DNA of 64,000 nt, taken from positions 2,408,554-2,472,553 of the forward strand of contig NZ_LT607802.1 in NCBI RefSeq assembly GCF_900090205.1. The letters run 5' to 3'. How positions within the stretch are numbered: the stretch's first letter is position 1; each line of letters starts with the position of its first letter. Source of the stretch: Vogesella sp. LIG4 (GTDB lineage Bacteria; Pseudomonadota; Gammaproteobacteria; Burkholderiales; Chromobacteriaceae). Below are positions 3,568 to 63,119 of this stretch, piece after piece. Under the pieces are notes generated by a model. It saw only the letters and a list, made by a program, of their open reading frames with translations. It did not search any database and was not told the DNA's origin. The position numbers were made by a program, and so were the translations under genes.

Positions 3568-4380
3568 ATGCAGGTATTGCTGGCCCAGATAGCGCTGAGC
3601 GACAACCAGACCGAGTCCAACCTGGCGCGCGTGCTGGCGCAGATCGCCAGCGCCCCGGCGGGCACCGATCTGATCGTATTCCCCGAAACCACGCTGATGG
3701 GCTTTCCCACCGCCGACGAGATCGCCGCGGTGGCCGAGCCGCTTAACGGCCCCACGCTGCAGGCGGTACAGCAGGCGGTGCGTGCGGCCAACGTGGCAGT
3801 GGCCGTGGGCTTTGCCGAGGAGCTGGACGGCCGCTTCTACAACACCACGGTGCTGCTGGCACCGGAAGGTGTGCTGCTGGCCTACCGCAAGACCCACCTG
3901 TGGGCGTCGGATGTCGGCGTGTTCGAGCCGGGCAGCGAGTTGCCGGTGACCACCTGGCGCGGGCGCAAGGTGGGCATGCTGATCTGCTTCGACATCGAGT
4001 TCCCGGAAACCGCCAGAGCGCTGGCCAGCCAGGGGGCGGAGCTGCTGCTGGTGACCAACGGCAATATGGACCCGTACGGCCCGGTGCACCGCACGCTGAT
4101 GCAGGCGCGGGCAATGGAGAACCAGCTGTTCGCGGTAATGGTGAACCGCAGCGGCAGCGGCGGCGGCCTGGATTTCGCCGGCGGCAGCATGGTGGTGAAA
4201 CCCGGTGGCGAAGTACAGCTGGAACTGGGGCGCGACGAGGCTCTGGCGACAACCCGGCTGGATTTCGCACTGCTGGACGCCAGCCGCCGCGATTACGACT
4301 ACGTGGCGCAGCGTCGGCTGCGCCTGGCTGCCGAACCGGCGCAAGCCGGCGAGGGCGGCAGCAGCCTGCATATAGGCTGA
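3568..4380 (+). CDS. Carbon-nitrogen hydrolase (nitrilase superfamily)
   Basis: 270 residues with the complete Glu-Lys-Cys catalytic triad of the superfamily: E40 in FPETTLMG, K108 in YRKTHLW and C140 in LICFDIEFPE. Such enzymes hydrolyse amides or nitriles through a thioester intermediate in the cytoplasm. Substrate cannot be told from sequence. The next gene is an amino acid/polyamine-type permease, so an amide of an imported amine or amino acid is plausible (inference). AAGGAG precedes the start. The start lies 159 bp from the divergent LuxR-type gene. Confidence 0.85.
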   Translation: MQVLLAQIALSDNQTESNLARVLAQIASAPAGTDLIVFPETTLMGFPTADEIAAVAEPLNGPTLQAVQQAVRAANVAVAVGFAEELDGRFYNTTVLLAPEGVLLAYRKTHLWASDVGVFEPGSELPVTTWRGRKVGMLICFDIEFPETARALASQGAELLLVTNGNMDPYGPVHRTLMQARAMENQLFAVMVNRSGSGGGLDFAGGSMVVKPGGEVQLELGRDEALATTRLDFALLDASRRDYDYVAQRRLRLAAEPAQAGEGGSSLHIG

Positions 4381-4434
4381 TGGAACCACCCCCGGCCCGA
4401 CCGAGCCGCAAGTAGCAGGCGGGCATTTTCAGGG

Positions 4435-4566
4435 CTTGTTTACGATCTGCTGCGCGTCGGCGATATGGCGTTGAATTCGATTCAGTAATGCGCATTGACG
4501 CCATGTCAATTCCGCGCCCCCTAGTTTTCGCCTTGTCTCGCCCTGGCTCGCAAGATCGTAAGCAAG
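4435..4566. repeat. Inverted-end repeat element, copy A
   Basis: This non-coding stretch between the nitrilase and permease genes is bounded by inverted ends: CTTGTTTACGATCT at 4435-4448 and AGATCGTAAGCAAG at 4553-4566 (13 of 14 pair). An inner hairpin pairs ATGGCGT (4465-4471) with ACGCCAT (4498-4504). Near the right end is CGCCTTGTCTCGCCCTGG. The element at 20458-20595 has the same architecture and a near-identical CGTCTTGTCTCGCCTGGG. This suggests a dispersed MITE-like or structured-RNA repeat. The permease promoter, if any, must lie in or around this element. Confidence 0.6.
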
Positions 4567-4603
4567 TTTTTACAAAGAGAAATAGAACAAGCAGGAGAAA
4601 CTC

Positions 4604-5940: not shown

Positions 5941-5973
5941 GCTTGCGGCCAACCTTCAGGGTTGGCCGCAAGC
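5941..5973. terminator. Hairpin made of two inverted GTTGGCCGCA motifs
   Basis: The arms 5941-5954 and 5960-5973 (GCTTGCGGCCAACC and its exact complement) form a 14-bp stem with a 5-nt loop. Each arm contains the window-wide repeated 10-mer. It follows the permease stop by 15 bp and lies between convergent genes, so it probably serves as a bidirectional terminator together with the next hairpin. Confidence 0.75.
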
Positions 5974-6977: not shown

Positions 6978-7253
6978 CTAACCGCGGAATGGAACGATTT
7001 TCCAGTCTTTCTGCACGTAACAGAAGTTGATCGGCGGCACTGTCATGCTTTTATTGCCGTAATTTATCGTGCCCGGCATGAAGCTCACCTTGTCGCCACG
7101 GTGTAGGGCAACATTGAATTTCAACAGCATGTCGCTGCACGCATTGAAGTCGATTGGTGTGACAAATGGCGGGGTACATTGCCTTCTGGCTGGAGGTAGG
7201 TCTGTCTGCCGCAACAAACAAAACGGCCAACCCTTTGCCAGGGTTGGCCGCAT
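6978..7253 (-). pseudogene. Small low-GC open frame, possible gene remnant
   Basis: The frame encodes up to 91 residues. Its first 12 codons fall in the mfd terminator hairpin, so the full-length frame is probably not a real start. The later part (PIDFNACSDMLLKFNVALHRGDKVSFMPGTI and ending YVQKDWKIVPFRG) reads like the tail of a real protein. Base composition here is clearly lower in GC than the neighbours. I recognise no family. It may be the C-terminal remnant of a transferred gene, a small gene with an unseen start, or chance. The rest of 6890-7280 shows only terminator sequence. Confidence 0.3.
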
Positions 7254-7280: not shown

Positions 7281-10200
7281 TTACGCCGTAAGTTCCTTCA
7301 GCAGCTCCTTCACCTTGCCGATGCGCTGCGCCACTTCCGGAATCGGCTGCTCCACCCGCAGCTTGTCCTGGCCGGCCAGTTTGTAGTGCCGCTTGCTCTG
7401 GATCAGCATGATGATCTTCACCGGGTCGATCGGCGGGTTCTTCACGAAGCTCAGCTGGATGGCCACTTCGCTGGCGTCCAGTTTCTGGATGCCCATTTCC
7501 TTTGCGGCCAACCTCAGGCGGTGGCTTTCGATCAGCGTTTTCACGCTCTGCGGCGGCAGGCCGAAGCGGTCGATCAGCTCCTCGTGGATGGCGTCGATCT
7601 CGTCTTCGCCTTCGCAGGTGGCCAGCCGCTTGTAGATCACCAGCCGCTCATGCACGCCGGGGCAGTATTCGTCCGGCAGCAGGGCCGGGCTGTGCAGGTT
7701 GATCTCGGTGGTAACGCCCAGCGGCGCGTCCAGATCCGGCTCGCGACCCTTTTTCAGGTCGCGCACCGCCTGCTTGAGCATCTCGGTGAACAGCGAAAAG
7801 CCCACTTCCTGCATCTCGCCGGACTGGCCTTCGCCCAGCACCTCGCCGGCACCGCGGATTTCCAGGTCGTGCATCGCCAGGTAGAAGCCGGCGCCCAGTT
7901 CCTCGGACGCCTGGATCGCCTCCAGCCGCTTCTGCGCATCCTTGGTCATGCCGTCCGGGGTGAGCAGGTAGGCGTAGGCCTGGTGGTGGCTGCGGCCAAC
8001 CCGGCCGCGCAGCTGGTGCAGTTGCGCCAGGCCGAACTTGTCGGCGCGGTTGATCAGGATGGTGTTGGCGTTGGGAATGTCGATGCCGGTCTCGATGATG
8101 GTGGAGCACAGCAGCACGTTGTAGCGCACCTGCAGGAAGTCGCGCATCACCTGTTCCAGCTCGCGCTCGCGCAGCTGGCCGTGCGCCACGCCGATGCGCG
8201 CCTCCGGCACCAGTTCGCTGAGCTTCTCGCGCATGTTCTCGATGGTGTCCACCTCGTTGTGCAGGAAGAACACCTGCCCGCCGCGCTTGAATTCGCGCAG
8301 CATTGCCTCGCGGATGATGCCGTTGCGGCTGGGGCTGACGAAGGTTTTCACCGCCAGGCGCCGGCTGGGCGCGGTGGTGATGGCGGAAAATTCGCGCAGC
8401 CCTTCCAGCGCCATCGACAGCGTGCGCGGAATCGGCGTGGCGGTGAGGGTGAGCACGTCCACGTTGGCGCGCAGGCGCTTGAGCTGCTCCTTCTGCCGCA
8501 CGCCGAAGCGGTGTTCCTCGTCGATGATCACCAGCCCCAGGTTGTGGAAGCTGACATCCGGCTGCACCAGCTTGTGGGTGCCGATCACGATATCGACATG
8601 GCCTGCGGCCAACCCTTCCAGTGCCTGTTTCACTTCCTTGGCGTTCTTGAAGCGCGACAGTTCGGCAATCTTCACCGGCCAGTCGGCAAAGCGGTCGGCA
8701 AAGTTCTGGTAGTGCTGCTCGGCCAGCAGGGTGGTGGGCACCAGTACCGCCACCTGCTTGCCACCCATCACTGCCACAAAGGCGGCGCGCAGCGCTACCT
8801 CGGTCTTGCCGAAGCCGACGTCGCCGCACACCAGGCGGTCCATCGGCTTGCCGCTGGTCATGTCGCCGATCACCGCCTCGATGGCGCTGGCCTGGTCCGG
8901 GGTTTCCTCGAAGCCGAAGCCGGCGGCAAAGGCGTCGTAGTCGTGGTGGCTGAGGCTGAAGGCATGGCCCTCGCGCGCTGCGCGCTGCGCGTACAGGTTG
9001 AGCAGCTCGGCGGCGGTGTCACGCGCCTTTTCCGCGGCGCGTTTCTTGGCCTTGTCCCAGGCCGGGCTGCCCAGGCGGTGCAGTTGCACATTGTCGCTGC
9101 CGTTGCCGGCGTAGCGGCTGATCAGCTGCAGCTGCGATACCGGCACGTACAGCGTGGCGCCTTCGGCGTACTCCAGCTGCATCATCTCGGTTTCGCCTTC
9201 GCCCAGGTCGATGGACACCAGGCCGAGGTAGCGGCCGATGCCGTGTGCTTCGTGCACCACCGGGTCGCCCACTTTCACCTCGGCGAGGTCGCGCAGCATG
9301 GCGTCGGAGCTGGCAGCCTTGCGGCGCTTGGTGTGGCTGCGTGCCACGTGCTGGTACAGCTCGGCCTCGGTGACGATGGCAAGGTTGGCCGCAGCCAGTT
9401 CGAAGCCGCTATACAGCGGCGTGGCCGCCAGAGCGAGCTTGTCGTCGCTGGCCAGGAACTCGGCCCAGCTGTCCATGGCCTTGGGCTGGATGCCGTTGTC
9501 GCGCAGGAACTGCTGCAGGGTTTCGCGCCGGCCCAGGCTTTCGGCGCCGATCAGCACCCGGCCGGGGTAGCGGCGCAGGTAGTCGTCCAGCTTGGTGAGC
9601 GGGTTGTCGGCGCGGCGGTCCACGCCCAGCTCCGGCAGGCGCCGGTAGTGTTCGTTGTCGCCATCCGCCGCCAGTTCGAAGCGGGCGTAGGGCTTGATGG
9701 CGGCCATGAGCTCGTCCGGGCGCAGGAAGATGTCGGCCGGCGGCAGCACCGGGCGCTCCGGTGCGCCCTGCGCCATCTGGTAGCGCGATAGCGCGTCGCG
9801 CCAGAAGTTCTCCGCCTCGGCCAGCACGTCGCCGTGCAGTACCAGGCCTGCTGCACTGCCCAGGTAGTCGAACACGCTGGTGGTGTCGTTGAAGAACAGC
9901 GGCAGGTAGTACTCGATGCCGGCCGGCCACAGCCCGGCGGACACGTCCTTGTAGATGCGGCTTTTGGACGGATCGCCCTCGATGCGTTCGCGGTAGTGCT
10001 GGCGGAAGGTGGTGATGCCGTCTTCGTCGCTGGGGTATTCGCGCGCCGGCAGCAGGCGGATCTCCGGCACCGGGTACAGCGTGCGCTGGCTATCCGGGTC
10101 GAAGGTGCGCAGCGAGTCGATCTCGTCGTCGAACAGGTCGATGCGGTAGGGCAGGGTGCTGCCCATCGGGAACAGGTCTACCAGCCCGCCGCGGATCGAG

Positions 10201-10789: not shown

Positions 10790-13700
10790 TTGCAATCAGA
10801 TATTCATAAAAGCCCGCTGTCTACGGACAGCCAGGGTGCGGGCAGCATTTTTCGTATGCGGGGAGACGTGGACAAATCCACTGCTAGTGCGTTGAGCGCA
10901 CTGATACTGTTCATTGGCGGCATGCTGCTGTGGCCGGGAGACTGGCAGCATGCGCTATTACCGGCGGTGTTCATCGCCCATGCCGCCATGGCATGGCGCT
11001 TTGCCGCCGGCCGTTTCAAGGTGGTGTGGTGGTGGGGCGCGCCGGCGGCGGTGGTGGCCCTGCTCGGCATGCCGCCGCTGCCTGCCGTGCTGTGGCTGCT
11101 GTCGTGCGGCGCCATGCTGCTGGGGCTGCACGTCATGCTGCCGGACAGCGGCTTCCGGCTGGATTCCCTTTCTTCCCTCGCCCGTTTGTTGCTGCGCCTG
11201 GTGCTGCCGGCGCTGCTGGTCAATGTGCTGCTGTGGCCGTTGCAGGATGCCGCTGGCGGCGCGCGCGCCTTCCTGTTGCTGTGGCTGTCGCTCGCCCTGC
11301 TGGTGCCGCTGCTGTATGCCGGCTTCCCCGGCCCGCAGGTGCGGCGCGAGCTGCTGGTGCTGCTGGGGCTGGGCACTTTGCTGGCCGGCATGCTGTGGTG
11401 GCTGGGCCGGGCCAACAGCGCCGCCGCCTGCCAGTTGTTGTTGCTGCCGCTGCTGTTTCTGGCGGCGATCCGTGCCGGGCTGGTGGGCGTGGCCGGCATC
11501 GGCTCGCTGTACCTGTTGCTGTTTTCGCTGCCGGCGCTGTGGCATGGCCGCATGTGGGGCGTGGCGGCGGATCTGCCGTCCACCCTGGGCCTGCTGCTGT
11601 TTGGCGTGCTGGCGCAGGCGGTGGCGGTGTTCGGCGAAGGCTATCGCCGGCGCGAGCGCCTGCTGCAGGACGTGCAGGCGCGCTTCGAATCGCTGCTCAA
11701 CCAGAGCACCAGCCTGATGACGCTGAAGGATCTGGACGGCCGCTACCTGCTGGTGAACCTGAACTTTGCCCGCTTGTTCGGCATGCCGCAGCAGGCGTTG
11801 AAGGGCTGCAGCGCGCGCGAACTGTTCAGTGCCGAAGAGGCATCGCAGATCAGCAGCCACGACCAGCAGGTGCTGCGCAGCCTGGAGTCGCGCCAGTTCG
11901 AGCAGGCCATCACCGTGGAGGGCCGCCACTACCTGATGCTGTCCAGCGTGTTTCCGCTGTTCGACAGCGATGGCCTGCCGGCCGGGGTGGGCAGCATCTC
12001 GGTGGACATCAGCCAGCGCGCCGAGGAAGAGCGCCAGCTGCAGGAGGCAATGGACAAGTACCGCGCGGTGGTGGAGCAGTCGCTGGTGGGCATCTACATC
12101 CTGCAGCACGAGGAACTGGTGTACATCAACCCCAAGCTGGCCACGCTGGTTGGCTATGTGCCGGATGAGATTCTGGGCGTGGCCATGGGCGAGCTGCTGA
12201 TGCCGGGCGAGGATGAGCATATCCGCGCGCAGATTCGCCGCCGGCTCAGCGAAAACATTCCGGTGATGCACTACGGCACCCGCCTGCGCCACCGCAGCGG
12301 CATGCCGGTCGATGTGGAGATCCACAGCCGCTTGATCGACTACCACGGCGACAAGGCCATCATCGGCGTGGTGATGGACGTGTCCGACCGCGTTGCGGCC
12401 AACGCCGAGCTGCGGCTGGCGGCCACGGTGTTCGACAACGCCACCGAAGGCATCCTGGTTACCGATGGTGAAGGCCGCATCGTGATGGTGAACCAGGCGT
12501 TCACCCGCATCACCGGCTTCGGGCTGGAGCTGGCCATCGGCCGCGTGTCGCGCATGCTGCGCACCGCCAACCGCGAGCGCAACCGCGCGCTGCAGGATGC
12601 GCTGGCGCGCGACGGCCACTGGAAGGGCGAAATGTTCGACCGCCGCAAGAACGGCGAGGCGTACACCGCCGAGCTGTCCATCAGCGCGGTGCGCGACCCG
12701 CTTGGCCAGCTGTCGCACTACGTGGGGGTGTTTTCCGACATCACCGGCCGCAAGCAGGCCGAGGACCGGCTGCAGTTCCTGGCCAGCCACGACCCGCTCA
12801 CCCGCCTGCCCAATCGCAGCGCGCTGATCGAGGCCATCGACAATGCCATCATCGAAACCGAAGAGGCGGAGCCCAGGCTGGCGCTGATGTTCATCGACCT
12901 CGACCGCTTCAAGCTGATCAACGACTCTTTCGGTCACCAGGCCGGCGACGAGGTGCTGCACGAAATCGCCGCGCGCCTGACGCAGTCCACCGAGCGCTTC
13001 GGCCTGGTGGCACGCCTGGGCGGCGACGAATTCACCCTGGTGGTGCGCGACTTCGACAGCCACGAGAGCCTGGGGCGCATGGCGGAGGAGGTGCTGGCCG
13101 CACTGGCGCGGCCGATCCGCATCGAGGGGCACGAGGTATTCGTCAGCGGCAGTATCGGCATCAGCGTGTTCCCCAACGACGGCGTGGACGCGGTGGCGCT
13201 GCTGAAGAACGCCGACGCGGCGATGTACCGCGCCAAGGAATCCGGCAAGAACACCTACCAGTTCTTCGATGCGCAGATGAACGCGCAGACCTTCGAGCGC
13301 CTGCTGATGGAAAGCGGCCTGCGCCAGGGCCTGGAGCGGCGGGAGTTCGAGCTGCATTTCCAGCCGCAGCTGTCCTGCGACGGCCAGCGCCTGGAAGGGG
13401 TGGAGGCGCTGCTGCGCTGGCGCCACCCGCAGCTGGGGCTGGTGCCGCCGGGGCGCTTCATTCCGCTGGCGGAGGAAACCGGCCTGATCAAGCCCATCGG
13501 CGCCTGGGTGCTGCGCGAAGCCTGCCACCAGATGGTGGCCTGGGACCGCATGGGGCTGCATGTGCCACGACTGGCGGTCAACCTGTCGGCGCGGCAGTTC
13601 GAGCAGCAGACGCTGCTGAACGAGGTGAACGACGTGCTGGCGGTAACCGGCCTGGCCGCCTCGCGACTGGAGCTGGAAATCACCGAAAGCATGCTGATGC

Positions 13701-14089
13701 AGAACCCGCAGGAGGCGGTATCACTGCTGCGCGAACTGAAGGGGCTGGGCGTGAAGCTGTCCATCGACGACTTCGGTACCGGCTATTCCTCGCTGTCCAC
13801 CCTCAAGCGCTACCCGCTGGACTACCTCAAGGTGGATCGTTCCTTCGTGGAGGGCCTGCCGGACGACGAGGACAGCGCCGCCATTACCGAGGCCATCATC
13901 GCCATGGCGCGCAAGCTCAAGTTCACGGTGATTGCCGAGGGGGTGGAAACCGCGGCGCAGAGTGTGTTCCTGGCCAATGCCGGCTGCGCCATCCTGCAGG
14001 GCTTCTACTACAGCCGGCCGCTGCCGGTGGCCGAACTGCAGCACTGGTTGGCCGCAAGGCAGCCGGCCTTGGCCGAAATCGCGCGTTAA
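10790..14089 (+). CDS. Membrane PAS-GGDEF-EAL cyclic-di-GMP signalling protein
   Basis: Up to 1099 residues. The first about 300 are very hydrophobic (eight or so membrane segments) and form an uncharacterised integral-membrane sensor. Three PAS domains follow (about 310-415, 420-545 and 545-665). The diguanylate cyclase domain has an intact LGGDEF signature. The C-terminal phosphodiesterase domain has EALLRW, LEITES, DDFGTGYSS, KVDRSFV and AEGVET, so it is also apparently complete. Both synthesis and breakdown of c-di-GMP are therefore possible. The start is uncertain: ATG at 10790 or 10856 or GTG at 10868, none with a good ribosome site. It is divergent from mfd. Confidence 0.9.
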   Translation: MQSDIHKSPLSTDSQGAGSIFRMRGDVDKSTASALSALILFIGGMLLWPGDWQHALLPAVFIAHAAMAWRFAAGRFKVVWWWGAPAAVVALLGMPPLPAVLWLLSCGAMLLGLHVMLPDSGFRLDSLSSLARLLLRLVLPALLVNVLLWPLQDAAGGARAFLLLWLSLALLVPLLYAGFPGPQVRRELLVLLGLGTLLAGMLWWLGRANSAAACQLLLLPLLFLAAIRAGLVGVAGIGSLYLLLFSLPALWHGRMWGVAADLPSTLGLLLFGVLAQAVAVFGEGYRRRERLLQDVQARFESLLNQSTSLMTLKDLDGRYLLVNLNFARLFGMPQQALKGCSARELFSAEEASQISSHDQQVLRSLESRQFEQAITVEGRHYLMLSSVFPLFDSDGLPAGVGSISVDISQRAEEERQLQEAMDKYRAVVEQSLVGIYILQHEELVYINPKLATLVGYVPDEILGVAMGELLMPGEDEHIRAQIRRRLSENIPVMHYGTRLRHRSGMPVDVEIHSRLIDYHGDKAIIGVVMDVSDRVAANAELRLAATVFDNATEGILVTDGEGRIVMVNQAFTRITGFGLELAIGRVSRMLRTANRERNRALQDALARDGHWKGEMFDRRKNGEAYTAELSISAVRDPLGQLSHYVGVFSDITGRKQAEDRLQFLASHDPLTRLPNRSALIEAIDNAIIETEEAEPRLALMFIDLDRFKLINDSFGHQAGDEVLHEIAARLTQSTERFGLVARLGGDEFTLVVRDFDSHESLGRMAEEVLAALARPIRIEGHEVFVSGSIGISVFPNDGVDAVALLKNADAAMYRAKESGKNTYQFFDAQMNAQTFERLLMESGLRQGLERREFELHFQPQLSCDGQRLEGVEALLRWRHPQLGLVPPGRFIPLAEETGLIKPIGAWVLREACHQMVAWDRMGLHVPRLAVNLSARQFEQQTLLNEVNDVLAVTGLAASRLELEITESMLMQNPQEAVSLLRELKGLGVKLSIDDFGTGYSSLSTLKRYPLDYLKVDRSFVEGLPDDEDSAAITEAIIAMARKLKFTVIAEGVETAAQSVFLANAGCAILQGFYYSRPLPVAELQHWLAARQPALAEIAR

Positions 14090-14897: not shown

Positions 14898-14929
14898 GTT
14901 GGCCGCACACTGTTGCGGCCAATTTTTTT
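14898..14929 (+). terminator. rlmB terminator from an inverted GTTGGCCGCA pair
   Basis: TTGGCCGCA (14899-14907) pairs with TGCGGCCAA (14914-14922), and seven Ts follow (14923-14929). This is an intrinsic terminator 22 bp past the rlmB stop. Both arms are copies of the dispersed repeat. Confidence 0.88.
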
Positions 14930-15002: not shown

Positions 15003-16517
15003 ATGCAACGTCGCAATTTCCTGCAGCTGGCCGCCGCCGGCGGGGCCGCCTGGCTGGCCCCCAAGGCCATGGCCGAAGAGTTTCCGATGGTGGTGGCGGG
15101 CACCGACCACGTGGATATGGGTCACAGCATGCCGATGCCGGCTGCCGCGATGCAGGCCAATGGCGCACTGCCGCCGCTGCCGCCCGGCGAGCACCTGCCG
15201 GCTTTGCCGCGGCTGGCCAACGAGGCTGCCGAGGCAGGACATTTCCGCGCCAGCCTGGAAGCCGCGCCGCTGCAGGCCGCGCTGTGGGGCGATAGCCGCC
15301 AGACCGCATTCTGGGCCTACAACGGCAGCCTACCCGGCCCCTTGATCGAACTGTGGGAAGGCGACCAGCTGGAGATCAACTTCAGCAATCGCTTGCCGCA
15401 GCCCACCACCATTCACTGGCACGGCATGCCGGTGCCGGCCGAGCAGGACGGCAACCCGCACGATCCGGTACAGCCCGGTGCGCAACGACAGTACCGCTTC
15501 ACGCTGCCGGCCGGCAGCGCCGGCACCTACTGGTACCACCCGCACCCGCACGGCCATACCGCCGAGCAGGCGTTCCGCGGCCTGGCCGGGGCGGTGATCG
15601 TGCGCAGCAAGGACGACCCGCTGCGGCATCTGCCGGAGCAGCACCTGCTGTTCTCCGACCTGAAACTGGATGCCGACGGCCAGGTGGCGGCCAATGAAAT
15701 GGCCGACCTGCACGATGGTCGTGAAGGCCAGTACCTGCTGATCAACGGCACCTGGCAGCCGATGATTCCGCTGTTCCAGGGCGAGCGCCAGCGCTGGCGG
15801 CTGTGGAACGCCAGCAGCAGCCGCATCCTCAAACTGGCGCTGCCGGCACACGATGTGCAGCTGGTGGGCACCGACGGCGGTCTGCTGGCCGCACCACAGA
15901 CTATCGACAGCCTGCTGTTGCCGCCGGGCGCCCGCGCCGAACTGGTGGTGACCGGCCGCTTCCGCGATGGCGTGCCGGCCGGGCTGATCAGCCAGCCCTA
16001 CCGCCGCGGCAAGATGATGCATGCCGAACAGCAGCAGGACGAAGTGGTGGCCGGCATCATGCAGCACGGCCTGAAACCCACGCAGCTGCTGCCGGCTTCG
16101 CTGCGCGCCATCGCGCCGCTGGGTGCGCCGGGCTTTCGCCGCCGTATCGAATTCAGCGAGAACATGGCCGACATGTCGTCCATGTTCCTGATCAATGGCC
16201 ACAGCTACGACATGAACCGCATCGACGGCACCGGCAAGGTTGGCCGCATCGAGGAGTGGGAGCTGGTGGGCAATGCTCACATGGATCACCCCTTCCACCT
16301 GCATGGCACCCAGTTCCAGGTACTGGCGCGCACCGTGGATGGCTTGTGGGAAGACGAGACCTTCCTGGCCTGGCGCGACGTGGTGAACGTGGCGGCCGGC
16401 CAGTCGGTGCGCATCCGCTTCGTGCAGCACCTGCCGGGGCTGCGCATGTACCACTGCCACATCCTGGAGCACGAAGACCAGGGCATGATGGCGCAGATCG
16501 ACTTTCTGGCGGAGTAA
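15003..16517 (+). CDS. Tat-exported multicopper oxidase (CueO/CopA-like)
   Basis: 504 residues starting MQRRNFLQLAAAGGAAWLAPKAMA, a twin-arginine signal, so it is exported folded to the periplasm. All copper-binding motifs are present: TIHWHGMPV, YWYHPHPHGHT, HPFHLHGTQFQVL and MYHCHILEHEDQGMM. The last carries the His-Cys-His and axial Met of the type 1 site. The likely role is oxidation of Cu(I) for copper tolerance. The region after the signal is Met/His-rich (DHVDMGHSMPMP). The start at 15003 is chosen for its Tat signal; an upstream open stretch to 14913 would run through the operator. It is first in an operon with csoR and copZ. Confidence 0.9.
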   Translation: MQRRNFLQLAAAGGAAWLAPKAMAEEFPMVVAGTDHVDMGHSMPMPAAAMQANGALPPLPPGEHLPALPRLANEAAEAGHFRASLEAAPLQAALWGDSRQTAFWAYNGSLPGPLIELWEGDQLEINFSNRLPQPTTIHWHGMPVPAEQDGNPHDPVQPGAQRQYRFTLPAGSAGTYWYHPHPHGHTAEQAFRGLAGAVIVRSKDDPLRHLPEQHLLFSDLKLDADGQVAANEMADLHDGREGQYLLINGTWQPMIPLFQGERQRWRLWNASSSRILKLALPAHDVQLVGTDGGLLAAPQTIDSLLLPPGARAELVVTGRFRDGVPAGLISQPYRRGKMMHAEQQQDEVVAGIMQHGLKPTQLLPASLRAIAPLGAPGFRRRIEFSENMADMSSMFLINGHSYDMNRIDGTGKVGRIEEWELVGNAHMDHPFHLHGTQFQVLARTVDGLWEDETFLAWRDVVNVAAGQSVRIRFVQHLPGLRMYHCHILEHEDQGMMAQIDFLAE

Positions 16518-17057: not shown

Positions 17058-17104
17058 TTCGCCACAGCAGTTTTGCCCGGGTTGGCCGCAACAGGTGGAG
17101 ATGT

Positions 17105-17133
17105 TTGCCTGTATGCGGCCAACTGCGTATAAT
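17105..17133 (+). promoter_or_regulatory. Sigma-70 promoter of the rpsF operon
   Basis: TTGCCT (17105-17110), a 17-bp spacer and TATAAT (17128-17133), about 70 bp before rpsF. A copy of the repeated 10-mer (TGCGGCCAAC, 17114-17123) sits within the spacer, and another lies just upstream at 17081-17090. Confidence 0.8.
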
Positions 17134-26021: not shown

Positions 26022-26074
26022 TGCGGCCAACCCTGGCCGCGGACGCAAAAACGCCCCGGTGCATGCCGGGGCGT
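26022..26074 (-). terminator. lldP terminator with adjacent repeat motif
   Basis: ACGCCCCGG (26051-26059) and CCGGGGCGT (26066-26074) form a stem followed on the minus strand by TTTTTGCG. Immediately beyond lies a copy of the 10-mer repeat (TGCGGCCAAC, 26022-26031) with a partial inverted partner TGGCCGC. The rest of the gap up to mscL at 25906 shows nothing further. Confidence 0.8.
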
Positions 26075-32145: not shown

Positions 32146-32163
32146 GCATGCGGCCAACTATGC

Positions 32164-48016: not shown

Positions 48017-48286
48017 ATGACGCCGGAAACCGTCATCAACCTGGTGCAGAACGCACTGTACGTGCTGATCCTGGTGGCTGCGCCACCGTTGGCCGCATCG
48101 TTGCTGGTGGGCCTGCTGGTGAGCATCCTGCAGGCGGCCACCCAGATCAACGAAATGACGCTGACCTTCATCCCCAAGCTGCTGGCCATGTTCCTGGTAC
48201 TGGTGCTGGCCGGGCCGTGGATGCTGACTACCCTGCTGGACTACATGACGCGGCTGTTCCAGAGCATCCCCAGCGTCATCGGCTGA
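48017..48286 (+). CDS. fliQ: Flagellar biosynthetic protein FliQ
   Basis: 89 residues with two membrane helices: MTPETVINLVQNALYVLILVAAPPLAASLLVGLLVSILQAATQINEMTLTFIPKLLAM. AAGGAA precedes the ATG. Export-gate component. Confidence 0.94.
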   Translation: MTPETVINLVQNALYVLILVAAPPLAASLLVGLLVSILQAATQINEMTLTFIPKLLAMFLVLVLAGPWMLTTLLDYMTRLFQSIPSVIG

Positions 48287-49952: not shown

Positions 49953-49974
49953 GGTTGGCCGCATGCGGCCAACC
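49953..49974. repeat. 22-bp palindrome of two 10-mer repeats
   Basis: GGTTGGCCGCA and TGCGGCCAACC abut to form a perfect palindrome between the yebC terminator and the glsA stop. It probably supports termination of glsA, read on the minus strand, although no U-tract follows. Confidence 0.7.
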
Positions 49975-50908: not shown

Positions 50909-51003
50909 ATTGCTCTGTCAGGTGTTGTGTGTCTGAACACCGCCGCGGCTGCCCTCTGTGTGGCTTGTGCGCCGTGGCGGCCAGGGTTGGCCGCAAGCGG
51001 CCG

Positions 51004-52823: not shown

Positions 52824-53747
<924 letters not shown>

Positions 53748-53830: not shown

Positions 53831-55618
53831 TCAGCTGGCCTGCAATTGCCAGTTGCCGGCGCCGTGCAGCTGCAGCTGCAGATCGTGGTGCACCAGCAGC
53901 GAGCTGCGGTGGCCAACGCTGACCAGGGTAGTGTGTGGCAGCCGCTGGCGCAGCAGCCGGTACAGCGCATCCTCCAGCCCTTCGTCCATCGCCGAGGTGG
54001 CTTCGTCCAGGAAGGCGACGTGCGGTGCGGCCAACAGCAGGCGGCCAAACGCCAGCCGCTGCTGTTCGCCCAGCGACAGGGTGTGGCTCCAGTCGGCCTC
54101 CACATCCAGCTTGCTGGCCAGTTGGCCCAGGTGTACCGCCTTCAGCGCGGCCACAGCGGCGGCATCGTCCTGTGCGGCCGGCTTGGGGTAGTACAGCGCA
54201 TCGCGCAGCGTGCCCAGCGGCAGGTAGGGGCGCTGCGACAGGAACAGCAGGTGCTCCGGCGCCGGGTGCTGCATCTTGCCGTCGCAGTACGGCCACAAGC
54301 CGGCGATGGCACGCAGCAGCGTGGTCTTGCCGCTGCCGGACGGGCCGCGGATCAGCAGCGCGTGGCCCGGCTCCAGCGTCAGATCCAGCTTGCTCAGCAG
54401 CGGCTCCTGGTCCGGGCGGCGCACGTTCAGGTCGTGCAGGATCAGCCCGCCCTCGCGCAGGGTGTGGGTGGGCTGCGGCAGCTGTGCGGCGGCTTCCACC
54501 GAGTCCAGGAAGCCGGTAAGACGATCCAGCACCGCCTTGTACTCGGCAAAGCTGTCGAAGGCGTTACGGAAGAAGGACAGGTTGTCCTGCAGCTGGCCGA
54601 AAGCCTGCGCGGTCTGCACCATGTCACCCAGCGAAATCTGCTTGGCAAAGAAGCGCTTGGCCTGGATCAGGAACGGGAACACCACCGCGGTCTGGCTGAC
54701 CACCAGGTTGAAACCGCTGAATTTCAGCGTTCGGTACACGATGGCCCACATATTGTCGATCACGTTGACGAAGCGGTGGCGCAGGGTGTGGCCTTCCACT
54801 TCTTCGCCGCGGTAGAACGCCACGCTCTCGCCGTATTCGCGCATGCGGATCAGCGCGTAACGGTAGTCGGCGTTCAGTTTTTCGTTAAGGAAGTTCAAGC
54901 GGATCAGCGGGCGGCTGATATGGAACGCCAGCACGGTGGCCACGATCACGTAGATGTAGGCGATGAACACCATGGCGCGCGGGATTTCCACGCCGAACAG
55001 GTTGAGCACCCCGGACAGCCCCCACAGGATCATAGTGAACTCGAAGGTGGACACCAGCGCGTCGATCACGCCCATGGATAGCGCCAGCGAATTGGACACG
55101 AAGCTGGCAACGTCCTGCTGGATACGCTGATCCGGGTTATCGCTGGGGTTGGCCAGGTGCGAGCTGCGATAGTAGGCCTGCTGGTTCAGCCAGCGCTGCA
55201 GCAGGCTTTCGTTCAGCCATTCCCGCCAGCGGATCAGGAAAGTCTGCTGGATGAAGTAGGAAAACAGCGCGCGGGCCACGTGCGCGGTGGCCAGTATGGT
55301 GAACACCAGCATCGACAGCCAGAACGCCTTTTCGTCCCACTTCTGCAAGGCGGTGTACATGCCGTTGTACCAGTTGGAGAACAGTACGTTGATGCGCACG
55401 CCGGTAAGGGTGATCAGCAGGATCAGCAGAATGACCAGAATGGGCCGCCAGCCGCTCTTGGCCGGCAGGAAGAATTCGCCGGCCAGGCGCCAGAACTGCC
55501 GCCCCCAGGTGGTGAAGCGCACCACCAGCCACAGCGCCAGCACAGAGGACGGCAGCGTGATCGCCATCGCCTTGCCCAGCCAGAAGACACTGCCCAGCAG
55601 CTCGTGATTCCAATCCAT
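53831..55618 (-). CDS. ABC transporter, SbmA/BacA-like permease fused to ATPase (YddA type)
   Basis: 595 residues. The N-terminal about 370 residues are a membrane domain of the SbmA/BacA type (LTGVRINVLFSNWYNGMYTALQKWDEKAFW and QRWLNQQAYYRSSHLANPSDNPDQRIQQDV). The C-terminal nucleotide-binding domain has Walker A GPSGSGKTTLLRAI, signature LSLGEQQRLAFGR, Walker B VAFLDEAT and H-loop VGHR. Relatives transport peptides, vitamin B12 or long-chain fatty acyl compounds; substrate here is unknown. Two ATGs follow AAGGAG, and the second (55618) has the better spacing. Confidence 0.88.
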   Translation of the reverse strand: MDWNHELLGSVFWLGKAMAITLPSSVLALWLVVRFTTWGRQFWRLAGEFFLPAKSGWRPILVILLILLITLTGVRINVLFSNWYNGMYTALQKWDEKAFWLSMLVFTILATAHVARALFSYFIQQTFLIRWREWLNESLLQRWLNQQAYYRSSHLANPSDNPDQRIQQDVASFVSNSLALSMGVIDALVSTFEFTMILWGLSGVLNLFGVEIPRAMVFIAYIYVIVATVLAFHISRPLIRLNFLNEKLNADYRYALIRMREYGESVAFYRGEEVEGHTLRHRFVNVIDNMWAIVYRTLKFSGFNLVVSQTAVVFPFLIQAKRFFAKQISLGDMVQTAQAFGQLQDNLSFFRNAFDSFAEYKAVLDRLTGFLDSVEAAAQLPQPTHTLREGGLILHDLNVRRPDQEPLLSKLDLTLEPGHALLIRGPSGSGKTTLLRAIAGLWPYCDGKMQHPAPEHLLFLSQRPYLPLGTLRDALYYPKPAAQDDAAAVAALKAVHLGQLASKLDVEADWSHTLSLGEQQRLAFGRLLLAAPHVAFLDEATSAMDEGLEDALYRLLRQRLPHTTLVSVGHRSSLLVHHDLQLQLHGAGNWQLQAS

Positions 55619-55754: not shown

Positions 55755-57128
55755 ATGCTCAATCTCTACAACACACTGACCCGCCAAAAAGAAGTATTCA
55801 AACCCATAGCACCCGGCAAGGTAAAGATGTACGTGTGTGGCATGACCGTTTACGACCTCTGTCACATCGGCCATGCACGCATGCTGACAGCCTTCGACGT
55901 GATCTACCGCTGGTTCACTGCCTCCGGCTACGACGTGACCTACGTGCGCAATATCACCGATATCGATGACAAGATCATCAAGCGCTCCGCCGAGCGCGGC
56001 ATCAGCCCGGAAGCGCTGGTGGAAGAAACCATCGCCGACATGCACGCCGACACCGGCGCGCTGGGCCTGCTGCTGCCCACTTTCGAGCCGCGCGCCACCC
56101 AGCACATCGGCGGCATGCAGGACATCATCAGCAAGCTGATCGCCCGTGGCAAGGCTTACCCTGCGGCCAACGGTGACGTGTACTACGCGGTGCGCGAGTT
56201 CCCCGGCTACGGCAAGCTGTCCGGCAAGACGCTGGATGCGTTGCGCGCCGGCGAGCGCATCGAGGTGGACCCGAACAAGCGCGACGCGCACGACTTCGTG
56301 CTGTGGAAGGCCGCCAAGCCGGGCGAACCGCAGTGGCAAAGCCCGTGGGGTGCCGGCCGTCCGGGCTGGCATATCGAGTGCTCGGCGATGAGCTGTCATC
56401 ACCTGGGCGAGCATTTCGACATTCACGGCGGCGGCGAAGATCTGCAGTTCCCGCACCACGAGAACGAGATTGCCCAGAGCGAAGGCGCCAACGAGCAGCA
56501 GTACGTGAACTACTGGATGCACAACGGCTTCATCAATGTCGATGGCGAGAAAATGTCCAAGAGCCTGGGCAACTTCTTCACCATCCGCGACGTGCTGGGC
56601 CATTTCGATGGCGAAGTGATCCGCTTCTTCATCGTGCGCAGCCACTACCGCAGCCCGGTGAACTTTACCGACGGCATTCTCAATGACGCCAAGCAGGGCC
56701 TGACCCGGCTGTACACCGCACTGCGCGGCCTGGCGCTGCCGGCGGCCACCGGCATCGACTGGAGCAACCCGTACGCGGCGCGCTTCAAGGCGGCGATGGA
56801 CGACGACTTCGGCACCTCGGAAGCGGTGGCGGTGCTGTTCGACCTGGCCGGCGAAGTGAACAAGAGCCGTGACCTGGCGCAGGCGCGCCTGCTGAAGGAC
56901 CTGGGCGGCGTGCTCGGCCTGCTGCAGCGCGACCCGGAAGCCTTCCTGCAGGGCGAGGCCGGCGGCGACGGCCTGAGTGCCGAACAGGTGGAAGCGCTGA
57001 TCCAGGCACGCAAGGATGCGCGTACTGCCAAGAACTGGGCCGAGTCCGACCGCATCCGCGACGAGCTGACCGCGGCCGGCATCGTGCTGGAGGACAGCGC
57101 CGCCGGCACCACCTGGCGCCGCGCCTGA
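55755..57128 (+). CDS. cysS: Cysteinyl-tRNA synthetase
   Basis: 457 residues, class I synthetase. [17 protein letters not shown] is the normal N-terminus; [19 protein letters not shown] holds a zinc Cys and the HIGH motif. [39 protein letters not shown] carries the other zinc ligands, and [10 protein letters not shown] is the KMSKS loop. The start at 55755 follows the family; a TTG-initiated extension to 55725 is unlikely. Confidence 0.95.
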
Positions 57129-57758: not shown

Positions 57759-59402
57759 ATGCTGACTTATAGCCCCAATCATTCCAGCCGCCTGCCGGTG
57801 GCCACCGAAAAACCGTGGCTGCTGCTATTGCTGGCTTTTGTATGGCTGTGGCCGGGCATCATCGGCCACACGCCGTGGAAGCCGAACGAGCCTTACGTTA
57901 CCGACGTGGTACAGCAGTTCGTGGCCGGCGGCCACTGGATGCTGCCTACCGTGGCCGGCCAGCCCTATGTCGAATACGCGCCGCTGTACTACTGGCTGGC
58001 GGCGATGCTGGCCAAGCTGCTGTCGCCGTGGCTGCTGCCGCTGCACGATGCCGCCCGGCTGGCCACACCGCTGTTCATGGGGCTGGCGCTGACCTTTGCC
58101 GGCGGTATCGGCCGCGAGCTGATCGGCCGCCGCCATGGCCGCAGCGTGGTGCTGATCCTGATCGGCAGCCTGGGGCTGATCGTCACCGGCCACGAGATGA
58201 CGCCGGTGGTGGCCGGCTTCGCCGGTTTCGCCGGCGCGCTGTACGCCATGGTGCTGACGCGCCGGGCGCCGGCCATGGCCGGTGCGCTGCTGGGCGCGGC
58301 GCTGGTGATGGTGTTTCTCAGTACCAACCTGTTGCAGCTGCTGCTGATCATCAGCGTGGCGCTGACACTGCCGGCGTTCACCTCCTGGCGCAACAAGAAC
58401 TACGCCATCACCCTGAGCATGGCGCTGCTGTTCGCGCTGCCGCTGCTGCTGGTGTGGCCGCTGGCGCTGCACAAGAACTACCCGCAGGTTTTCGACTTGT
58501 GGTGGCAGCACTATGCGCTGGGGCCGCTGCAGGGCTTCGGGCGGCTGGGCCTGTTCCACGAGTTCGGCTACTACCCCAAACTGGTGCTGTGGTACGCCTG
58601 GCCAGCGTGGCCGTTGGCCGCATGGGCGCTGTGGAAGAACCGCCGCTACGAACTTCCCATGCTGCAGCTGCCGCTGCTGTGCTTCGCCGTGGTGCTGCTG
58701 CTGCTGACCTTCTCCAGCCGCAGCCAGAGCGAGGACGCGATAGTGCTGCTGCTGCCGCTGTCGCTGCTGGGCGCGGTGGAGCTGGACAGCCTGCGCCGTG
58801 GCGCGGCGTCCTTCCTCAACTGGTTCGGCCTGATGGCGTTCGGCTTCTTTGCGCTGCTGGTGTGGGCGGGCTGGGCGGCAATGAATTTCGGCTGGCCGGA
58901 GCGGCTGGCGCGGCGGGCGGAATACTTCAGCCCCTACTACACGCCGCAGGTGTCCGGCCTGGCGGTGGCGCTGGCGCTGGTGGCCACCGTACTGTGGTTG
59001 TGGGCGGTGACGCGGCGCCACCTGCGTGGCCGCCAGGCGGTAACCAACTGGGCCGCCGGGCTTACCCTGTTCTGGGGGCTGCTGCTTACGCTGTGGCTGC
59101 CGTTCCTGGATGCCGCCAAGAGCTACCAGCCGGTGGTGGCCAACATGATGCGCTCCATGCCGACGGGCGACCAGTGCGTGGCGGTGGAAGCGCCGGAAAG
59201 ACTGGCGCGCGTCAGCTGGCGCTACTTTGCCGGCCTGCAGCTGCGTGCCTTCGTGCCGGGGCAGAGCATGCCCTGCCGTCTGTGGCTGCTGGTGCGCGAC
59301 CCGCGCGAGCGCAAGCTGCCGGCCGGCTGGGATGTGCGCTGGCAGGGCAGCCGCGGCCGCGACAAGAACGAGCAGTTCGTGCTGCTGCAGAAGCAGGGCT
59401 GA
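57759..59402 (+). CDS. ArnT/PMT-type membrane glycosyltransferase family protein
   Basis: 547 residues with about 12 hydrophobic segments. The N-terminal loop HTPWKPNEPYVTDVVQQFVAGGHWMLPTVAGQPYVEYAPLYYWLAAMLAKL resembles the catalytic loop of GT-39/GT-83 enzymes such as ArnT, which move sugars from lipid carriers. In ArnT-like enzymes an acidic pair in this loop is usual (DE), whereas here a single Glu (NE) is seen. The acceptor and sugar are unknown. No glycan cluster is adjacent. Confidence 0.7.
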   Translation: MLTYSPNHSSRLPVATEKPWLLLLLAFVWLWPGIIGHTPWKPNEPYVTDVVQQFVAGGHWMLPTVAGQPYVEYAPLYYWLAAMLAKLLSPWLLPLHDAARLATPLFMGLALTFAGGIGRELIGRRHGRSVVLILIGSLGLIVTGHEMTPVVAGFAGFAGALYAMVLTRRAPAMAGALLGAALVMVFLSTNLLQLLLIISVALTLPAFTSWRNKNYAITLSMALLFALPLLLVWPLALHKNYPQVFDLWWQHYALGPLQGFGRLGLFHEFGYYPKLVLWYAWPAWPLAAWALWKNRRYELPMLQLPLLCFAVVLLLLTFSSRSQSEDAIVLLLPLSLLGAVELDSLRRGAASFLNWFGLMAFGFFALLVWAGWAAMNFGWPERLARRAEYFSPYYTPQVSGLAVALALVATVLWLWAVTRRHLRGRQAVTNWAAGLTLFWGLLLTLWLPFLDAAKSYQPVVANMMRSMPTGDQCVAVEAPERLARVSWRYFAGLQLRAFVPGQSMPCRLWLLVRDPRERKLPAGWDVRWQGSRGRDKNEQFVLLQKQG

Positions 59403-59529
59403 ACGCCTGCCACGCCAGGTCTTGATGTCATGCCCAAGGTTGGCCGCAGCGCTCGCTGCTGTAATGCCTGAGTGATAGATTGCGGCAGCGCCCCCGCCCG
59501 CGGGGCGTGCCGCCAAACCGGAAGCTGCC

Positions 59530-60876: not shown

Positions 60877-60877
60877 T

Positions 60878-62281
60878 TTACTGCATCAACCCTTCCATGC
60901 ATGCGGCCAACCTCTGCGCCAGCGCACGCCGCCAGCCGGCGGCGGCCGTGTGCTGGTTCAGCACCCGGTCTTCCCAGTCGAAACTGCGGATGATGCCGTT
61001 GTAACCCAGCCAGCGTAGCGGCTCCGGTTCCCAGTGGCGCACCTGCGCCGGGGTGGTGAACCAGGGAATCTGCCGCAGCTGCGGTTGCGTGCCGGTAATC
61101 AGCGCGGCGAGGCTGCGCCCTGCCAGGTTGCTGGCACCCACGCCTTCGCCACCGTAGCCGCCGGCAAACACCATCTTGTTGTCGCCATCGACGACGATCC
61201 GCGGCTGGAAGCCGCGCGCCACGCCCAGGTTGCCGCCCCAGCCATGGGTGATCGCCACCTTGTCCAGCATCGGGAACAGCTCCAGCATCATATTGCGGCG
61301 CATGGCGACTTCCGCCGGCGTCAGCGCGAACTGGCGGCGGATCTTGCCGCCGAAGCGGTAACCGCCGCGCGCGCCGAATACCAGCCGGTTGTCCCGCGTG
61401 CGCTGGCCGTAGCTCACCAGGCGGCTGAATTCGCTGAACGCCTGGCCGTGCTCCAGGCCGATTTCGTCCCACAGCGTCTGCGGCAGCGGTTCGGTGGCGA
61501 TGATCATGCTCTGCACCGGAATCTGGTGGCCGCGGATGCCGGGTAGCGTCCGCGAGTAGGCCTCCACCGCCGGCACCACCCAGTCAGCGCGCAGGGTGCC
61601 GTGGCGGGTGCTCACCTCATGCGGGCGGATGGCGGTGGCCGGTGTCTGTTCGTACAGGCGCACGCCAAGCTGCGTTACGCAGCGGGCCAGTTCGCGCACC
61701 AGCCGCGCCGGCTGCACGGTGGCAACATGCGGCGAGAACACCGCGCCGAACGGGCGGGCAATGCGCAGCTGGCGGTTCAGCTCGGCCACCTCCAGCCAGC
61801 GGAAGTCCGCCTCGCCGTGGCCGTGCTGGTGCCAGTGCGCCAGCTGTCGCCGCAGCCGCGCCTCCTGTTCCGGGTAGCGCGCGGCGCAGTACAGCACGCC
61901 GCCCTTGCGGAAGTCGCAGTCCAGCGACTCGCGGGCCACGATGCGGCCAACCTCGTCGGGGATGTCGCGCAGGATGGCCAGGCAGGCATCGCGGGCGGCG
62001 TCGTCCAGCCCGGCAAGCAGGCGCTCCTCGCCGGACAGCTCGCCGATCACCCAGCCGCCGTTGCGGCCGGAGGCGCCATAGCCGGCCAGCTCGGCCTCGA
62101 CGATGGCAATGTCCAGCTCCGGCGCCAGTTGCTTCAGATAGTAGGCGGTCCACAGCCCGGTATAGCCGGCGCCGACAATGACCACGTCGGCACGGCTGTC
62201 GCCGGACAGCGGCGGCCCCGGCTGCCGTTGTTGCGGCGGCAGTTGGTCCATCCACAGGCTGATGTCACTCGATTGCGGCAT
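60878..62281 (-). CDS. FAD-dependent oxidoreductase, PuuB-like (gamma-glutamylputrescine oxidase type)
   Basis: 467 residues of the D-amino-acid-oxidase fold. The dinucleotide-binding motif DVVIVGAGYTGLWTAYYL and the ELAGYGASGRNGGWVIGEL segment (flavin region) are at the N-terminus, with FAGGYGGEGVGASNLAGRSLAALI near the C-terminus. This pattern is typical of PuuB/YcjA-like oxidases of polyamine and amine breakdown. Next to it are an AraC regulator and a PotF-like binding protein, which supports a polyamine role. Convergent with the TAXI gene, 1 bp between stops. AAGGGGAG precedes the ATG. Confidence 0.82.
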   Translation of the reverse strand: MPQSSDISLWMDQLPPQQRQPGPPLSGDSRADVVIVGAGYTGLWTAYYLKQLAPELDIAIVEAELAGYGASGRNGGWVIGELSGEERLLAGLDDAARDACLAILRDIPDEVGRIVARESLDCDFRKGGVLYCAARYPEQEARLRRQLAHWHQHGHGEADFRWLEVAELNRQLRIARPFGAVFSPHVATVQPARLVRELARCVTQLGVRLYEQTPATAIRPHEVSTRHGTLRADWVVPAVEAYSRTLPGIRGHQIPVQSMIIATEPLPQTLWDEIGLEHGQAFSEFSRLVSYGQRTRDNRLVFGARGGYRFGGKIRRQFALTPAEVAMRRNMMLELFPMLDKVAITHGWGGNLGVARGFQPRIVVDGDNKMVFAGGYGGEGVGASNLAGRSLAALITGTQPQLRQIPWFTTPAQVRHWEPEPLRWLGYNGIIRSFDWEDRVLNQHTAAAGWRRALAQRLAACMEGLMQ

Positions 62282-62312
62282 GCGGTTCTCCCCTTAGGTT
62301 GCTGGCTGGACC

Positions 62313-63119
62313 TTAACCGTCGGCCGGGGGCGTTGTCGTCCCGGCGGGCACGCAGGGAATCTGGCGCAGATAGGCGCTGGGGGTCATGCCGGTTTCGTCA
62401 CGGAAGGCGCGGTAGAACGACGACAGCGAGTTGAAGCCGGCGGCAAAGGCCAGCTCGTCCACCCGCAGCGGCAGCGGCTGGCGGGGCAGCTCTGCCAGCA
62501 GGTGGCGCACCCGTGCCGCGTTGACGTACTGGTAGAAGCTGCTGCCCAGCACCTGGTTGAGCAGGTAGGAAAGCTGGTTGCGGCTGTAGCCGGTGGCGGC
62601 GGCCACGGTCTGCAGCGTGCACGCCGGGTCCAGGTAGGGGCGCTGCTGCTGGAAGTAGTTGTGCAGCTCTGCGGCCAACCTGCCCAGCTGCCGCGCCGAC
62701 AGCCCCAGCCGCTGCAGTGGGCTGCGGCCGGCCGTCCCGCCTGCGGCGGTGGCGGCGCGCTGCAGGGTGGCGTACTCGTCGATGCGCCATACCAGGCCGT
62801 CCTTCACCCGGATGGCTTCGCTGCTGTGGAACAGTACGCGGCCGTCGTCCAGCGACAGCTGGTACTGGATGAAGGCGGTATCGCCATCCACGCGGATGCG
62901 GTCGCAGTGCTCCAGGCGGTCGCCTGGGCTGGCCGGCAGCGATGCCTGCACGTAATCGCGCAGCCCGTCGTGGCGGAAAACCCGGTTCTGCAGGTGGTCG
63001 TGGTAGGCGATGTCCGGGTGGTACAGCGCGAGAATGGCGTCCAGCTTGCGGCTCTTCCACGCCTGGTGATAGCGCAGTACCGCCTGGTAGGTGTCTTCGT
63101 TGAAGCCGGGACGCTCCAT
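62313..63119 (-). CDS. AraC-family regulator with SnoaL/NTF2-like N-terminal domain
   Basis: 268 residues. The N-terminal about 120 residues (YQAVLRYHQAWKSRKLDAILALYHPDIAYHDHLQNRVFRHDGLRDYVQASLP...GDTAFIQYQLSLDDGRVLFHSSEAIRVKDGLVWRIDEY) look like a SnoaL-type small-molecule-binding cone. The C-terminus is an AraC DNA-binding domain (TVAAATGYSRNQLSYLLNQVLGSSFYQYVNAARVRHLL...DELAFAAGFNSLSSFYRAFRDETGMTPSAYLR). GGGAG precedes the ATG at 63119. It likely controls the flanking oxidase and binding-protein genes. Confidence 0.85.
   Translation of the reverse strand: MERPGFNEDTYQAVLRYHQAWKSRKLDAILALYHPDIAYHDHLQNRVFRHDGLRDYVQASLPASPGDRLEHCDRIRVDGDTAFIQYQLSLDDGRVLFHSSEAIRVKDGLVWRIDEYATLQRAATAAGGTAGRSPLQRLGLSARQLGRLAAELHNYFQQQRPYLDPACTLQTVAAATGYSRNQLSYLLNQVLGSSFYQYVNAARVRHLLAELPRQPLPLRVDELAFAAGFNSLSSFYRAFRDETGMTPSAYLRQIPCVPAGTTTPPADG

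Follow-up and report, generated by a model that had tools for sequence, protein, structure and literature searches.

The genomes of the Neisseriaceae carry thousands of copies of a 10- to 12-mer DNA uptake sequence (DUS), which lie on both strands, inside and outside genes and in inverted pairs, and whose dialects follow genera. The minor pilin ComP is the established DUS receptor in Neisseria. Frye et al. (2013) distinguished eight dialects, all with CTG at positions +6 to +8 and A at +10 (PMC3630211); the conservation of CTG in all eight is also stated in PMC12061091, and this core is called essential in PMC12061091 and PMC12616744. Papers of 2024-2025 keep to the eight dialects (PMC11316581, PMC12061091, PMC12616744), and one lists seven possible new 12-mers, all with CTG (PMC11316581). 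Frye et al. saw nothing that was obviously a DUS in Laribacter, Lutiella or Pseudogulbenkiania, nor in two genomes of Chromobacterium, and placed the origin of the DUS after the split from Chromobacterium violaceum, where BLAST found no ComP (PMC3630211). Here, we describe a 64,000-nucleotide stretch of Vogesella sp. LIG4, a member of the Chromobacteriaceae (contig NZ_LT607802.1, positions 2,408,554 to 2,472,553 of the forward strand; the whole stretch is called the window below), and the 10-mer GTTGGCCGCA, which is repeated throughout it. We present evidence that GTTGGCCGCA is very probably a DNA uptake sequence shared by the genus Vogesella, and that a ComP-type pilin encoded elsewhere in the genome is its likely receptor.

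The window contains 50 exact copies of GTTGGCCGCA, 22 on the plus and 28 on the minus strand. An initial annotation, made from the letters of the window alone, had arrived at the same count and placed 49 of the copies correctly, the one assigned to 39558 starting in fact at 39557; its chance expectation of about 0.3 was slightly low compared with dinucleotide shuffles of the window (mean 0.64, maximum 3), which leaves the excess unaffected. Genome-wide counting, a check which that annotation had proposed, yielded 1,458 forward and 1,437 reverse copies in the single contig of 4,147,242 bases (genome G000), or 2,895 in total and one per 1.43 kb, far above expectation; the control, the same pattern read backwards, occurs 4 + 4 = 8 times. 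A 464-kb sample of this genome, composed of the window and 20 stretches of 20 kb, holds 316 copies as against 3.4 expected from an order-3 Markov model, an excess of 92-fold, and the 30 one-mismatch words of GTTGGCCGCA together reach 104 occurrences where 104.7 are expected. A few of these words individually exceed expectation, such as GTTGGCCGCG with 17 occurrences against 4.9.

The repetition of GTTGGCCGCA is independent of what the DNA encodes. An in-house simple gene caller assigned 441 genes to 78% of the 464 kb, probably too little of it; 206 of the 316 copies lie inside these called genes, where they occupy all six frames, 104 lie outside (69 expected) and 6 span a gene edge. When synonymous codons were shuffled within each gene, 12.5 copies remained on average and 20 at most, as against the 206 observed (16-fold), which rules out codon usage or protein conservation as the cause. 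An artefact of composition or codon usage might be expected of a GC-rich genome in which GGCC-rich words are common, but this idea is already refuted by the Markov, one-mismatch and codon-shuffle counts, and samples of family members of similar GC content, such as G056, G061 and G071, show no enrichment; we give it practically no weight.

Copies are evenly distributed between the replication strands, with 147 of the 316 on the leading strand, which was identified by GC skew stretch by stretch. This makes a polar site of replication or recombination unlikely, and the strong strand bias that the annotation had named as evidence against its proposal is absent. The motif is short, very abundant and spread over the whole genome, as would be the binding site of a methylase or of a chromosome-maintenance system (Chi-like, KOPS-like, or bound by a nucleoid or segregation protein) with no connection to uptake. 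Such a site is nevertheless very improbable in view of the balanced replichore strands, the non-palindromic 10-mer, the DUS-like enrichment outside called genes and in inverted pairs, and the existence of three dialects, described below, that differ in their last two bases alone. The highly iterated palindrome HIP1 of cyanobacteria is likewise a hyper-abundant short genomic word; it is palindromic, unlike the Vogesella motif.

Of the copies outside called genes, 102 have full flanks; in these, the upstream bases favor A at -3 (67 copies), A at -2 (55) and G at -1 (72), and the downstream bases favor A or T (78), then G (64), then C (52). From these preferences the extended 12-mer is AG-GTTGGCCGCA, the AG prefix standing in the same register as in AG-DUS. 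Little sequence is shared beyond about 3 bases per side, and no longer unit was seen. Opposite-strand pairs separated by at most 60 bp number 25 in the 464 kb as against about 6.5 for random placement; nine of them have no spacer, and four lie inside the window. Inverted pairs are thus as frequent as had been claimed. The accompanying claim that they form terminators fits few of them: both arms lie outside called genes in 14 of the 25, and TTTT occurs within 15 nt of an arm in 3, so that termination is at most a secondary role and is ruled out as the main one. These pairs, and above all those without a spacer, are what a dispersed mobile repeat or terminator element carrying the 10-mer, of the repetitive extragenic palindromic (REP) or miniature inverted-repeat transposable element (MITE) kind, would produce. 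We consider this scarcely credible, since only 26 of the 316 copies start a pair within 60 bp, most copies lie in called genes in six frames, the flanks share so little and T runs are rare beside the pairs.

The motif is constant throughout the genus. All 13 Vogesella genomes carry between 1,871 and 2,895 copies of GTTGGCCGCA, including V. indigofera (G005; 2,057) and V. oryzae (G010; 2,273), in which single loci of about 21 kb have 11 and 9 copies, respectively. The 28 non-Vogesella genomes in the 41-genome relative set have 2-58 copies, and the highest counts come from two genera of the same family (G014, 58 versus 8 for the control; G023, 50 versus 21; G013, 45 versus 10). Several of these relatives possess sister motifs. 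When k-mers were counted in samples of other genera with no motif given as input, GTTGGCCGAA emerged in genera g2, g3, g5 and g10 and in genome G017 of g6, and GTTGGCCGAG in g4. Whole-genome counts, made for GTTGGCCGAA and GTTGGCCGAG in all 61 family genomes and for GTTGGCCGCA in 25, identified eight carriers of GTTGGCCGAA (G014, 2,168 copies; G021, 1,851; G017, 1,368; G016, 1,245; G013, 1,104; G022, 893; G023, 579; G076, 183; next highest genome, 78) and two of GTTGGCCGAG (G024, 1,940; G015, 1,590; next highest genome, 165). The search of relatives suggested by the annotation was therefore positive: of the 61 family genomes, 23 carry either GTTGGCCGCA itself (13) or one of its sister 10-mers (8 with GTTGGCCGAA, 2 with GTTGGCCGAG). 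These three dialects differ in the last two bases alone and share a CCG core at +6 to +8; as had been supposed, GTTGGCCGCA lacks CTG and is not a published Neisseria dialect.

No excess of GTTGGCCGAA or GTTGGCCGAG was found in the remaining 38 of the 61 genomes, which comprise 9 of the 10 in g6, all 19 in g7 (Chromobacterium, with G055 being Chromobacterium haemolyticum), all 6 in g8 (Paludibacterium) and all 4 in g9. The highest among them is Paludibacterium purpuratum (G072), with 62 and 92 copies of the two words versus 13 and 21 for the controls. GTTGGCCGCA is also low in the three of these 38 that were counted whole (G018, 18; G019, 11; G020, 28), and 980 kb of samples from 14 of the 38, these three included, contained 7 copies. 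A k-mer search of 260 kb each of Chromobacterium G061 and of G042 (g6) found no dialect-like 10-mer, where an equal length of the window's genome yielded 184 copies of GTTGGCCGCA. Across 399 genomes sampled from the order, GTTGGCCGAA rose above 47 copies only in G016 and G017, the other six carriers lying outside that sample. In eight Neisseriaceae samples that served as controls, this k-mer counting brought out simDUS with kingDUS in three, eikDUS in two and AG-DUS in one, and nothing in two (G088 and 21 kb of Snodgrassella).

Other repeated words and uneven stretches were seen in these searches. The 8-mer CTGGCCGA is about threefold over the order-3 Markov expectation in G061 (194 versus 67) and G042 (128 versus 46), probably a codon effect of Leu-Ala-Glu, and low-copy repeats occur there too. 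G017 has a second word, GTTTGCCGAA, besides GTTGGCCGAA (18 copies in 80 kb versus 0.33 expected), and in the sample of G014 (g3) a word of the CCAACGCCAACG type occurs about 20 times, probably within one internal repeat array. In G021 (g10), 20 kb of the first contig lacks the motif among its top words and the main contig is motif-rich; the genome is listed with 7% contamination, and the first contig may for that reason be foreign. Two lower-GC stretches of G000, L239 and L240 (at 3.40 and 3.60 Mb), have 3 and 5 copies of GTTGGCCGCA per 20 kb as against an average of about 14. A protein scan found no phage family among 9 and 8 proteins there, transporters, regulators and enzymes being present, and gene content gave no clear sign that these stretches are mobile elements.

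The Chromobacteriaceae motifs resemble the DUS dialects in sharing AG at -2/-1, G at +1, C at +6 and G at +8. The 12-mer AGGTTGGCCGAA matches both AG-mucDUS and AG-simDUS at 9 of 12 bases in the same strand and register, differing from the former at +3, +5 and +7 and from the latter at +2, +5 and +7; shuffles, compared on any strand and at any offset, reach 9 of 12 in 0.9% of cases. The A at +10, which is common to all eight dialects of Frye et al. (PMC3630211), is present in GTTGGCCGCA and GTTGGCCGAA and replaced by G in GTTGGCCGAG. The Vogesella motif would act in the same manner as the uptake signal sequence (USS) known from Haemophilus and further Pasteurellaceae; read on its reverse strand as TGCGGCCAACCT, it matches the extended Hin-USS at 9 of 12 bases. 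The Vogesella motif, however, lacks the AT-rich flank of the USS, the USS-like GCGG core occurs in the Vogesella dialect only (the sister dialects read TTCGG and CTCGG), and the hosts of the USS belong to another bacterial class. Because the likeness to the USS rests on the base at +9, at which Vogesella departs from GTTGGCCGAA, it appears to be convergence: should GTTGGCCGAA be the older form, a single change within Vogesella produced the likeness, and convergence is the more likely explanation. The resemblance to DUS is modest, and as the Vogesella motif resembles the USS about equally, we rejected it as stand-alone proof.

The annotation had recommended a search for a ComP-like pilin, and a ComP orthologue is encoded outside the window by a gene adjoining aroB (candidate comP, G000:C1:1559002-1559418). 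Its only PDB sequence matches at E <= 0.1 are three Neisseria ComP chains (5hz7, 2nba and 2m3k), which are also its three best Foldseek hits, with about 20-25% identity over the fold. Two other G000 proteins that exceed the cut-off of the Pfam family PF16732 (ComP_DUS), L003 and L004, were rejected as the receptor, as they match PilE and PilA, and no ComP, in the PDB at E <= 0.1. A 27-member family alignment, A1, was used to score the best match in each genome. The 23 genomes with a dialect reach 126-200 bits, the other members of g6 159-177, g7 101-169, g8 84-158 and g9 59-68; ordinary pilins of G000 score 61 and 56. ComP-like pilins above this ordinary level thus occur in 57 of the 61 family genomes; by these scores most dialect-free genomes keep one and g9 seems to be without. 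ComEC exceeds its family cut-off in 57 of the 61 genomes. In a tree built from 70 ComPs together with two other pilins, the split between the two kinds has values of 100/99, the group of Vogesella ComPs (13) has 100/100 and that of Neisseriaceae ComPs (20) has 98/92; with its deep forks open, the tree does not discriminate between one old gain followed by losses and several gains.

Among Chromobacteriaceae ComPs, the signature WPxLP is found in 22 of the 23 that come with a dialect and in 23 of the 27 that come without one; 19 of 20 Neisseriaceae ComPs have it as well. The b1-b2 loop reads A-R-G-A-x-D in Neisseriaceae ComP, as opposed to an A-[KR]-N-T-D-x-G that is frequent in Chromobacteriaceae. 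N-[TVA]-D in this loop occurs in 22 of the 23 dialect-bearing ComPs, G021 being without it, and in 1 of the 27 dialect-free ones, where it is shifted and out of register (SSDNVDQ, G061). Within g6 it is present in the dialect-bearing G017 and absent from the six congeners examined. This association was noticed after the fact and is confounded by kinship, and we set N-[TVA]-D aside as a dialect marker. Three Neisseriaceae samples with simDUS and kingDUS (G097, G087 and G115) have a ComP with no cysteine before the b1-b2 loop, nearer the Chromobacteriaceae form. One TGA is flagged in the ComP match of G071 (g8; G071:C1:465057-465458), but its frame runs for 135 residues up to a stop, and the gene is not clearly broken. 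AroB, encoded next to ComP, is 76-88% identical between G000 and the other Vogesella genomes as against 35-56% for ComP.

The comP gene of G000 overlaps at its start with a gene for a GspH-domain pilin (PF12019; L005:887-1423), a homologue of which adjoins comP in 13 of 13 Vogesella genomes. Another pilin, for example this one directly upstream of comP, could be what reads the uptake sequence, with ComP serving as a general DNA-binding subunit. FimT is itself GspH-like. Legionella FimT is treated as a pilin that binds DNA in PMC12616744. The strong divergence of ComP within Vogesella, alongside a constant dialect, would also fit a different reader. Against this stands the established role of ComP in Neisseria; further, the GspH-domain pilin has no PDB match at E <= 0.1, and tblastn (E 1e-3) found no GspH-like neighbor in 17 non-Vogesella comP loci, most of about 3.4 kb, where a diverged one could escape. 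A receptor other than ComP is unlikely on balance, although less so than the readings that dispense with uptake.

The observed over-representation of GTTGGCCGCA, its independence of codons and proteins, strand symmetry and excess of inverted pairs, together with the sister dialects and the orthologous ComP, support the DUS-like dialect that the annotation had proposed. We put at roughly 0.88 the probability that GTTGGCCGCA is a genus-wide Vogesella DNA uptake sequence, read by a ComP-type minor pilin and spread by biased uptake. By analogy with Neisseria, a ComP-type minor pilin on the type IV pilus would prefer motif-bearing DNA during natural transformation, the bound DNA would be pulled in and handed to ComEC, and motif-bearing DNA, being taken up and recombined more often, would spread copies through the genome. 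That Vogesella ComP binds GTTGGCCGCA, and that this binding biases uptake, we infer from the same analogy.

Several observations weigh against this interpretation. The Chromobacteriaceae motifs have CCG where DUS dialects have CTG at +6 to +8, a core in which transversions leave N. meningitidis with almost no transformation (PMC3630211). Likeness to DUS is weak both for the Vogesella 12-mer (8 of 12 bases, reached by 7.9% of shuffles) and for AGGTTGGCCGAG (8 of 12, 6.2%), and the 9-of-12 match of the reverse strand of the Vogesella 12-mer to the extended Hin-USS is reached by 0.6%. Two of the solved ComP chains are not outstanding in VIA-align scores (PilV 9.4, ComP 2nba 9.2, PilX 8.3, ComP 2m3k 7.6). 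PF16732 scores the G000 ComP at 23.8 bits, below the gathering cut-off of 27.3, which orthologues such as the G002 ComP (49.6 bits) pass; other minor pilins pass as well, so the cut-off fails to tell ComP apart. The two disulfides of Neisseria ComP are described as essential (PMC12616744), whereas only two cysteines are invariant in A1, and the G000 ComP has four, two of them within the N-terminal helix. ComP is 35-56% identical between G000 and the other Vogesella genomes, the motif remaining unchanged; ComP-like pilins are found in motif-free genomes too (27 ComPs from 27 of the 38); and ComEC falls below its cut-off in G001, G008, G021 and G058, two of which are Vogesella drafts.

With its CTG core absent, GTTGGCCGCA is not a DUS dialect by the published definition; judged by receptor, anatomy and register, the Chromobacteriaceae motifs are best regarded as a group sister to these dialects. 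In the searchable literature, judged mostly by title and the start of the abstract, we found no report of a DUS-like motif in this family, and Table S1D of Frye et al. (2013), which covers over-represented 10-mers of Chromobacterium, Pseudogulbenkiania, Lutiella and Laribacter, may hold one of the words described here. The sequences point to a DUS-like system, probably ComP-read and with a CCG core, in a family in which that literature places none, and the data argue for a system older than the origin placed by Frye et al. We lean towards a history in which DUS and ComP predate the split of Neisseriaceae and Chromobacteriaceae. The ancestral motif would have been AG-G-Y-T-G-S-C-Y-G-A-A, with a CYG core from which CTG was fixed in Neisseriaceae and CCG in the Chromobacteriaceae in which the system survived. 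Vogesella and a second genus would each have altered a single base of the final two; Chromobacterium, Paludibacterium and others would have kept a ComP-like pilin and lost the motif, and one genus would have lost ComP too. If so, the CTG core, held to be essential and universal, would be one of two solutions, and the exchange of T for C at +7 would constitute a natural experiment in receptor-motif co-evolution. With ComP-like pilins in 57 and CCG dialects in 23 of 61 genomes, the origin and loss of self-specific transformation become testable by comparison. For the question of how ComP reads the DUS, a second set of receptors and motifs, differing at a supposedly indispensable base, is direct material, to which genera with the receptor and without the motif add.

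In the window, the four inverted pairs comprise copies at 5944..5953 (minus strand) and 5961..5970 (plus), with a 7-nt spacer; at 17081..17090 (plus) and 17114..17123 (minus), with a 23-nt spacer; and, with no spacer, at 27913..27922 (minus) and 27923..27932 (plus) and at 49954..49963 (plus) and 49964..49973 (minus). Four copies lie in mfd (7503..7512, 7991..8000 and 8604..8613, minus; 9384..9393, plus), two in uvrB (33382..33391, plus; 34413..34422, minus) and two in a lactate permease gene (26371..26380 and 27544..27553, plus), with one each in a sigma-54 response-regulator gene (37677..37686, plus) and a fliK-like gene (44461..44470, minus). The other plus-strand copies are at 7243..7252, 14047..14056, 14898..14907, 16239..16248, 19287..19296, 19897..19906, 21899..21908, 35282..35291, 48088..48097, 50986..50995, 52893..52902, 58613..58622 and 59439..59448. 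Those on the minus strand are at 3783..3792, 12394..12403, 18968..18977, 19603..19612, 19998..20007, 23101..23110, 26022..26031, 30182..30191, 32149..32158, 36146..36155, 39557..39566 (the copy whose position was corrected above), 41470..41479, 47188..47197, 53492..53501, 54026..54035, 56162..56171, 60902..60911, 61942..61951 and 62670..62679. All of these copies are exact matches to GTTGGCCGCA.

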